A stretch of DNA of 64,000 bases from Armatimonadota bacterium (lineage in GTDB: Bacteria; Armatimonadota; DTGP01; JAKQQT01). The stretch is from assembly GCA_036504095.1 (NCBI GenBank), contig DASXVS010000045.1:124001-188000 (forward strand). Reading direction: 5' to 3'. Made by a program: the position numbers and the translations under genes. Position 1 is the stretch's first letter. Each line of letters opens with the position of its first letter. Of this stretch, positions 60,303 to 61,670 are shown one piece after another. The notes under the pieces are model-generated. The model made no database searches and had not been told where the DNA came from. It saw only the letters and a list, made by a program, of their open reading frames with translations.

Positions 60303-60524
60303 TACCGCGGCAGATCGCGATCGCGTGACGCACCGCGGCAGTTTTGGCAACGCGCTCCGCTCGATGCGAACCGACTCGGCACGAGGCGGGCCGGTGACTC
60401 CGACGGGCATGAGGCGGATGGACGCTGAGATCGCCCGGGATTTGTGCTCTGAGCAGCGGCAAATGCTCTCATCAGGCAACAATTTGGCTGGGAATGAATG
60501 TGCAGCCGCCGAAGCGGTCAAACA
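60303..60524 (+). other. Upstream region of the PEP-CTERM gene, possible enhancer repeats
   Basis: No gene. ACCGCGGCAG occurs twice (60304-60313 and 60332-60341), with a perfect palindrome GATCGCGATC at 60313-60322. TGCTCTGAGCA (60445-60455) is another dyad, with a half-site TGCTCT at 60464-60469. A sigma-54 activator would be expected to bind at such a distance, but the assignment is speculative. Confidence 0.3.
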
Positions 60525-60540
60525 TGGCGCGTTTCTTGCG
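60525..60540 (+). promoter_or_regulatory. Sigma-54 (RpoN)-type -24/-12 promoter
   Basis: TGGCGCG, four bases, TTGCG: this matches the sigma-54 consensus TGGCACG-N4-TTGCW at nearly every position, with GG and GC in the required register. The predicted start is near 60551, 63 bases before the PEP-CTERM start codon. A 7-bp hairpin (CGCCGTG with CACGGCG, 60558-60578) lies in the leader. Confidence 0.6.
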
Positions 60541-60613
60541 GCGTTTTGACTTATTGGCGCCGTGGCCCACGCACGGCGACTACTCGTTCCCATTGAAAGG
60601 AGTATTCGGTCCA

Positions 60614-61393
60614 ATGCTAAAGAAACTAGCCATTGTCCTCGCATGCGCCGTCACGGTCGCGGTTGCGGCCCGCGCCGTCGACCCGGCGGTTTATCAGAAC
60701 ACCCGCGGCAGCTACTATGTCTTCAACTACACTGCCCCCACCGCGCTGGCAGCCCTTGATGACGGACACCTCAATTCACCCGGCGCCGACATCACCAGCT
60801 TCACCTTTGGCACCTCCCTGTCGCCTCTCGGGCTGGCGCCCGATGGCAGCGCGGTAAAGGTGGATTTCGACGCCCTGATCAGCTTTTACATCGGTAAACC
60901 GCTGGGTACGCCGTTTACCAGCGCAAAAAGCGCGGCGAATCTGATTGCCACGTACCGTATCCCGTTCCGCGCAGTTTCGGCCCCCGCGACGAACGCTCAG
61001 CTCAATGCTTGGTCGGTAGCCGCCAGCTTCACGATCCCGACGCAGGATTTTGCGATTGAAGAACTCTTCGTCACGCCCGACGGCACTTCGGTCAACGACA
61101 TTACGGACGTTGTGAATCCGTTCATCGCGGCCGGCAACGCCGCCCCCTCCGGCGTGAACGACGCCACGGTCGGGTCAAGTGCAGACCTTATGTATACGGA
61201 CGACAGCTATGACGGCCTGTACGATGCGCCCACGGCGCCTACATCCTTCGGTGACGGCGTCCATAACGCGAGCCTGTACCTCCGCCTCCGCGGCACTCCG
61301 CACAGTGCCGCCGTTCCGGAACCCGGCACACTGGCCCTTCTCGGCACCATCGCGCCCCTGGCGGGCCTCGTGATTCGCCGCAAACGCGCATAG
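60614..61393 (+). CDS. PEP-CTERM sorting-domain protein
   Basis: A 259-residue exported protein. The signal peptide runs to about residue 22 (VAVAARAVDP). The middle is an all-beta domain without recognised family, beginning PAVYQNTRGSYYVFNY. The C-terminus is a PEP-CTERM signal: VPEPGTLALLG, a hydrophobic helix and RRKRA. Known systems use exosortase to cut at PEP and anchor the protein in envelope or exopolysaccharide. No exosortase is in the window. AAAGGAG lies about 11 nt before the ATG, and a strong terminator follows. Confidence 0.92.
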   Translation: MLKKLAIVLACAVTVAVAARAVDPAVYQNTRGSYYVFNYTAPTALAALDDGHLNSPGADITSFTFGTSLSPLGLAPDGSAVKVDFDALISFYIGKPLGTPFTSAKSAANLIATYRIPFRAVSAPATNAQLNAWSVAASFTIPTQDFAIEELFVTPDGTSVNDITDVVNPFIAAGNAAPSGVNDATVGSSADLMYTDDSYDGLYDAPTAPTSFGDGVHNASLYLRLRGTPHSAAVPEPGTLALLGTIAPLAGLVIRRKRA

Positions 61394-61421: not shown

Positions 61422-61457
61422 GTGGGGAGCCCATCCGGGCTCCTCACGTGCTTTTTT
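61422..61457 (+). terminator. Rho-independent terminator after the PEP-CTERM gene
   Basis: An 11-bp stem (61422-61432 with 61437-61447, one G-T pair), a 4-nt loop and a TTTTTT tail after GTGC. A classic intrinsic terminator that isolates the thiamine operon from the gene before it. Confidence 0.9.
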
Positions 61458-61520
61458 GGCGCGCCGTCGTCGCGCCCCTCGCTGGATGCGGGATGCCGAT
61501 ACCTGCTACCATGGTTTCAA

Positions 61521-61604
61521 CGCTGGGGGAGTCCTATGGCGGACTGAGAGCCCGTAAGGGCGACCCTTTGCACCTGATCCGGGTCATGCCGGCGTAGGGA
61601 AGCG
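61521..61604 (+). ncRNA. TPP riboswitch (THI element)
   Basis: The two hallmark blocks are intact: ACTGAGAGCC with a GTAA-capped stem (pyrimidine arm) and ACCTGATCCGGGTCATGCCGG followed by CGTAGGGAAGCG (pyrophosphate arm, TPP-binding). CGCT at 61521 pairs with AGCG at 61601 to close P1. It precedes thiG and should lower expression of the thi genes when thiamine pyrophosphate is abundant. Confidence 0.97.
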
Positions 61605-61607
61605 CCA

Positions 61608-61670
61608 GTTCTCCAAATCATTGAAGGGCCGCGCCTCTCTCGGGCGGGCCCAATTCGCATTTTGGAGAAC
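61608..61670 (+). promoter_or_regulatory. Shine-Dalgarno-sequestering stem downstream of the TPP riboswitch
   Basis: GTTCTCCAAA at 61608-61617 pairs perfectly with TTTGGAGAAC at 61661-61670, which contains the thiG GGAG ribosome-binding site six bases before the ATG. A GC-rich inner hairpin lies between. Because this arm begins three bases after P1, the riboswitch can compete with or favour it, giving translational control. There is no intrinsic terminator. Confidence 0.75.

Follow-up and report, generated by a model that had tools for sequence, protein, structure and literature searches.

The window analyzed here is a stretch of 64,000 nt on contig C45 (C45:124001-188000) of the source genome, G000 (4.68 Mb, 80 contigs, 98.6% complete). 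A gene encoding a PEP-CTERM protein of 259 aa is located at 60614..61393 on the forward strand. Its product has a signal peptide and, at residues 233-257 (61310..61384, +), a C-terminal PEP-CTERM sorting signal matching PF07589, with the tail AVPEPGTLALLGTIAPLAGLVIRRKRA. The scores of the product exceed the cut-offs for both PF07589 (23.8 bits, cut-off 20.7) and TIGR02595 (25.5 bits, cut-off 16), which agrees with the earlier note, where a PEP-CTERM gene had been placed behind the promoter described below. A ribosome-binding site, AAAGGAG, was read directly at 60596..60602 (+), 11 nt before the ATG. The single-gene unit is closed by a terminator-like hairpin at 61422..61447 (+; 11 pairs, 8 of them GC, with a T run), although chance alone could yield one hairpin of this kind in the region. 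A TPP riboswitch (RF00059, 73.3 bits) was found at 61515-61617, between the PEP-CTERM gene and thiG. The ThiG protein encoded in the window shares 84% identity with its counterpart in an Armatimonadota MAG, which places the source organism in Armatimonadota.

The intergenic region before the gene (60303..60613, +) is 311 nt long and contains a predicted -24/-12 (sigma-54) promoter element at 60525..60540 (+). Read directly, this element is TGGCGCGTTTCTTGCG, i.e., TGGCGCG-TTTC-TTGCG. Sigma-54 promoters require GG and GC ten bases apart, and this spacing is exact here. Compared with TGGCACG-N4-TTGC, the element has one mismatch, and its next base is G, not W; the fit to the RpoN consensus proposed earlier was thus confirmed with these two departures. 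The element starts at -89, and 73 nt separate its end from the ATG (60614). Transcription from sigma-54 promoters is expected to start 11-13 nt past the GC, and a start near 60551 is predicted. No sigma-70-like promoter was found in the region before 60614. A lone site of this type proves nothing, because chance predicts 0.19 exact TGGCRYG-N4-TTGC matches in a window of such composition. No second exact match was found in the 64 kb, and one-mismatch matches were at chance level (7 found vs. 8.2 expected). As the single match is unremarkable, the finding depends on the rest of the genome.

In total, 34 PEP-CTERM matches were found in the source genome, including 28 over the cut-off, as well as two exosortases (PF09721/TIGR02602). 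Exosortase and PEP-CTERM proteins thus co-occur, as is characteristic of the Exosortase/PEP-CTERM system. For the enrichment analysis, 33 oriented PEP-CTERM loci with usable upstream DNA were scanned with a matrix built from the known sigma-54 consensus, independent of the tested sequences, and sites scoring >=11 in the interval from -300 to -20 were counted. The statistics draw on the 34 PEP-CTERM loci, on control stretches totalling 400 kb to which the window was added, and on pattern searches; the matrix (PWM) and the start codons were chosen by the analyst, and gene calling was heuristic. Such a site was found at 18 of the 33 PEP-CTERM genes, against 0.43 expected from the density in the window (binomial p = 1e-25). 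Among intergenic upstream regions of other genes, drawn from 460 kb of G000 sequence, only 5 of 159 had a site with this score (Fisher p = 2.6e-12). The motif scan proposed in the earlier note thus returned a strong enrichment.

When weaker and more distant sites were included, the element [TC]GGC-N7-[TGA]TGC was found at 22/33 PEP-CTERM genes, at positions from -67 to -329. The GG, the C, and the TGC are invariant and at fixed spacing in all 22 elements, T precedes TGGC in 17 of them, and A follows TGC in 14. Leave-one-out scores of the 22 elements range from 10.6 to 24.8, while only 28 of 800,000 control positions score >=11. Based on the enrichment and on this comparison of scores, support for the regulon is good, and the window site is a weaker but likely member. 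With a leave-one-out score of 11.0 against the matrix of the other PEP-CTERM promoters, the latter ranks second from the bottom among the 22 elements. This score, the lack of the usual A after TTGC, the chance expectation given above, and the occurrence of similar scores in ~2.5% of control upstream regions would all suit an explanation in which the regulon is real elsewhere, the match at this gene is accidental, and 60614-61393 is driven by another promoter. Such an accident is improbable: the prior for a true site is high because two thirds of the PEP-CTERM genes in this genome have one, both distance (-89) and orientation fit, and no sigma-70-like alternative was seen. Moreover, one copy of the homologous gene in the sister genus has a counterpart, TGGTCCGTTTTTTGCA, at -98. 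No homologues of the window gene were found outside this sister genus among 61 genomes.

The distribution of the element among the PEP-CTERM genes is dispersed. At least four PEP-CTERM genes are located in a row on contig C31 (C31:23461-29853, L055), each with its own sigma-54-type site and with no single promoter shared by all. The element is lacking at 11 of the 33 genes. Two PEP-CTERM genes without the element (L008 and L012), whose products have a different tail, of the YALLGGGLAALGVLRSRR type, are found on contig C23, which also carries one of the exosortases; each exosortase may thus have its own substrates, under separate regulation. A cobalamin riboswitch (RF00174, 71.9 bits; L022:2588-2763) was found on contig C2, ~125 nt upstream of another element-less PEP-CTERM gene; hence at least one surface protein of the PEP-CTERM kind appears to be B12-controlled.

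The element was also found outside the PEP-CTERM genes. In matrix scans and a further pattern search, it was detected before the gene for a PilZ response regulator that heads a locus on contig C63, followed by genes for polysaccharide export, UDP-sugar dehydrogenase, exosortase, and EpsI. Within the same locus, it precedes the gene for a Bac_transf sugar transferase. Further copies precede genes identified by domain search as encoding an NTP_transf_5 nucleotidyltransferase and a Polysacc_synt flippase. A strong sigma-54-type site is located at C26:90138 (L310), before tandem Flp/Fap pilin genes and an apparent prepilin peptidase gene. The raw genome-wide count was rejected as evidence: the pattern TGGCN7KTGCAC has 24 matches, against 27 for the reversed control pattern, and is not over-represented. 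Nine of the 24 matches precede PEP-CTERM genes and one is located 68 nt before rpoN1, while most of the others are intragenic. Only the non-coding placement before PEP-CTERM genes is telling, so this count is not usable as evidence.

Sigma-54 promoters normally need an upstream activator-binding sequence. Two dyads are present before the window gene, TGCTCtGAGCA at 60445-60455 and GATCGCGATC at 60313-60322, and were proposed earlier as activator sites. This proposal was not borne out, as the dyads are private to one gene: no good copies of either were found at the other promoters of the set. A search for an activator motif in 23 upstream regions, by gapped-word enrichment and by Gibbs sampling (plain and palindromic), gave results within the control range. 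The proposed activator of this regulon, EBP1 (see below), may recognise a site that is degenerate or far away, or it may work with low DNA specificity; the latter could be possible because so few activators compete in this genome.

Two full-length rpoN genes were found in the source genome, both with the activator-interacting, core-binding, and DNA-binding domains; the presence of rpoN had been named as a check on the earlier proposal. Downstream of rpoN1 on contig C72 are the genes for a small histidine kinase, herein referred to as HK1, and a response regulator, EBP1. HK1 matches kinase domains only (HisKA, HATPase_c) and has no recognisable sensor domain. EBP1 has a receiver-AAA+-Fis architecture, with PF00072, PF00158, and PF02954 all over the cut-off, a GSFTGA loop, and the Walker A motif GESGTGKE; the loop of its counterpart in the sister genus is GAFTGA. 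With a receiver, an AAA+ domain with a GAFTGA-like loop, and a Fis HTH, EBP1 is an activator of the NtrC type. The second set, located on contig C2, includes a GAF kinase, EBP2, and rpoN2. In EBP2, the loop reads GSFTNA, which is unusual, and the DNA-binding end is shortened. Apart from these two complete sigma-54 activators, each encoded beside one rpoN, one weak match was found, which is probably unrelated. Because the genome contains no other complete activators, each sigma factor seems to have its own. No relatives of RpoN1 were found when named genomes were searched.

Among the Armatimonadota genomes searched, rpoN was found in 43 of 61. The genome G001 represents a sister genus in the same family and has a single rpoN, which is of the RpoN1 type (61% identical, fully supported clade). 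Here the element precedes 6 of 10 PEP-CTERM genes. The rpoN1 gene is in line with the genes for EBP1 (69%), a PilZ response regulator, an export protein, UDP-sugar dehydrogenase, exosortase, and EpsI. In both genera the element precedes the response-regulator/exosortase operon and the rpoN1 operon. The site upstream of rpoN is TTGGCATATAAGTTGCC in G001 and TTGGCATACAACTTGCA in G000, at equal distance from the gene, and the element before rpoN1 stands at a matching place in the two genera (TTGGCATACAACTTGCACA and TTGGCATATAAGTTGCCAA).

In four relatives that have PEP-CTERM genes and lack rpoN, the element was found at none of 19 genes (0/6, 0/3, 0/8, and 0/2); the rpoN-less G050 is a congener of an rpoN-bearing genome. 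This absence bears on the nature of the element, which might otherwise be taken for the operator of some other DNA-binding protein. Several copies are perfect palindromes (GCACAATTTGTGC), including TGGCACAATTTGTGCA at L007 and L031; near-palindromes occur at L032 and L037, and the rpoN site of G001 is palindromic too. Nevertheless, about half of the sites are non-palindromic, of the TGGCNNGNTTCTTGCA type, the asymmetric GG-N10-GC core is the part kept in 22/22 copies, and one copy precedes rpoN itself. Together with the absence of the element where rpoN is lacking, these observations make an operator highly improbable and argue for a sigma-54 promoter.

Among rpoN-bearing relatives, sites scoring >=11 were found at 0/5 PEP-CTERM genes in G006, 0/7 in G058, and 0/3 in G020; one site each was found in G043 (1/8) and G013 (1/12). 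Because several rpoN-bearing genomes have few or no sites, the wiring is patchy in the phylum. A dependence of the regulon on rpoN copy number was considered and rejected, as G020 has two rpoN genes yet 0/3 sites. In G045, which belongs to another family, the element was found at all five tested PEP-CTERM genes, four times as TGGCACGATTCTTGCA. The second rpoN cassette of this genome (contig C12, L285), in the order kinase-activator-rpoN, immediately precedes a group of flagellar genes (identified by eye, including fliF and fliG) and is a relative of the source genome's RpoN2 set. The activator in G045 may differ, since this cassette adjoins flagellar genes.

These data raise the question of which sigma factor uses the element. 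The regulon could depend on sigma-54 but be driven by the RpoN2/GAF-kinase/EBP2 set of contig C2, or both sigma factors could share one promoter type. Both sets are present in the genome, G045 combines its five of five sites with an RpoN2-type cassette, and the strong site before the Flp pilin cluster is a possible target for either set. Assignment to RpoN2, alone or shared, is nonetheless unlikely, if less so than an operator or an accidental match. RpoN1 is favoured because G001 has RpoN1 alone, with 6/10 sites and the cassette inside the exosortase locus, because the rpoN1 operon bears the element in both genera and the rpoN2 operon does not, and because EBP2 has the unusual loop noted above. 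The shortened DNA-binding end of EBP2 and the flagellar neighbourhood of the RpoN2-type cassette in G045 also speak against RpoN2. We consider it very probable that the site at 60525-60540 is a true sigma-54 promoter of the PEP-CTERM gene and a member of a dispersed RpoN1/EBP1 regulon. Judged from sequence, the whole is best read as a putative PEP-CTERM/exosortase regulon of sigma-54 (RpoN1) outside Proteobacteria.

According to the proposed mechanism, RNA polymerase with RpoN1 would bind TTGGC-N8-TGCAC and remain in a closed complex. The co-encoded small cytoplasmic kinase HK1 would phosphorylate the NtrC-type EBP1, and phosphorylated EBP1 would open the complex through ATP hydrolysis. The predicted output comprises the exported PEP-CTERM proteins and the exosortase/exopolysaccharide operon that would sort and house them. 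The switch may be self-amplifying, because rpoN1 and the genes for the kinase and the response regulator lie together downstream of such a promoter.

In Proteobacteria, -24/-12 elements and an upstream motif were described before 99 of 167 PEP-CTERM genes, and among the species covered these motifs were common to Proteobacteria only (Haft et al., 2006; PMC1569441). In later work, pepA of Aquincola proved to depend on RpoN (RpoN1-pepA; PMC9850573), and DAP-chip in Desulfovibrio (D. vulgaris) demonstrated binding of DVUA0057 to predicted PEP-CTERM targets (PMC3333781). The earlier note had extended the PrsK-PrsR-RpoN logic beyond this group. The sigma-54 part of this suggestion stood, by the presence of rpoN and by the enrichment; the PrsK-PrsR part did not, since no homologue scored over the cut-offs. 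The best candidates for PrsR (TIGR02915, cut-off 502.6) reached 392.4 and 397.7 bits, and those for PrsK (TIGR02916, cut-off 300) only 83.3 and 100.5 bits, over the kinase part of the model only. Where the best candidates were scored, PrsK was over the cut-off in none of 151 Armatimonadota genomes. Motif 1 (TTTACA, ~63 nt before the promoter) was found in 0 of 23 regions, with 0.2 expected by chance.

The system shares with PrsK-PrsR-RpoN the single-gene PEP-CTERM units behind long intergenic regions, the -24/-12 element ~70 nt before the gene at a similar share of loci (22/33 here), the pairing of a histidine kinase with an NtrC-type response regulator, and the exosortase/exopolysaccharide context. 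It differs in that PrsK and PrsR are lacking at the cut-offs used, the kinase has no PrsK sensor part, motif 1 is absent, and the sigma factor gene itself belongs to the cassette and bears the promoter. On this comparison, it is best read as functionally parallel to PrsK-PrsR-RpoN with different regulators, and not as a member of it. EBP1 and EBP2 resemble the regulators of AtoS/AtoC and NtrB/NtrC in being receiver-AAA+ activators, nearest to the AtoC/NtrC models; their scores do not reach the AtoC, NtrC, ZraR, or PrsR equivalog cut-offs, and their genes adjoin rpoN. Sigma-54 has been tied to exopolysaccharide and surface genes across phyla, and AtoC-like activators are widespread (Francke et al., 2011; PMC3162934). 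A text search of that survey gave no mention of PEP-CTERM or exosortase, and no rpoN-kinase-activator cassette dedicated to them was found in the passages considered. Searches among open-licence papers returned no description of PEP-CTERM genes being controlled by sigma-54 in Armatimonadota.

Haft and co-workers had seen the link to sigma-54 in Proteobacteria only and left PEP-CTERM control elsewhere open; here, a switch of similar type turns up in a further phylum, built around other regulators. It seems somewhat probable that sigma-54 took control of PEP-CTERM/exosortase systems on more than one occasion, through unrelated regulators, and that rpoN1 here encodes a dedicated, self-regulated sigma factor for surface sorting that comes with a kinase and an activator of its own, a cassette located in the exosortase locus in one genus, while the second rpoN set has other tasks. 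The presence of such a switch in a second phylum suggests some selective reason to control proteins that are exported and matrix-bound through a promoter of the all-or-nothing, ATP-driven type. The element may also serve as a sequence handle for predicting co-made surface proteins in uncultured Armatimonadota, and EBP1/HK1 would be the place to seek the signal.

Two further observations were made during the pattern searches. A tandem array on contig C10 near 27620 (L060), with repeated FNPHPAFPPGAT-like peptides in translation, is probably a CRISPR array, and one of its repeat copies is a chance match to the promoter pattern. A stretch with TTGGCGAGCCTGGTGC recurs at the ends of contigs C7, C24, and C31 and also inside C42 and C52, and is probably a repeated element, e.g., a transposon, that broke the assembly.
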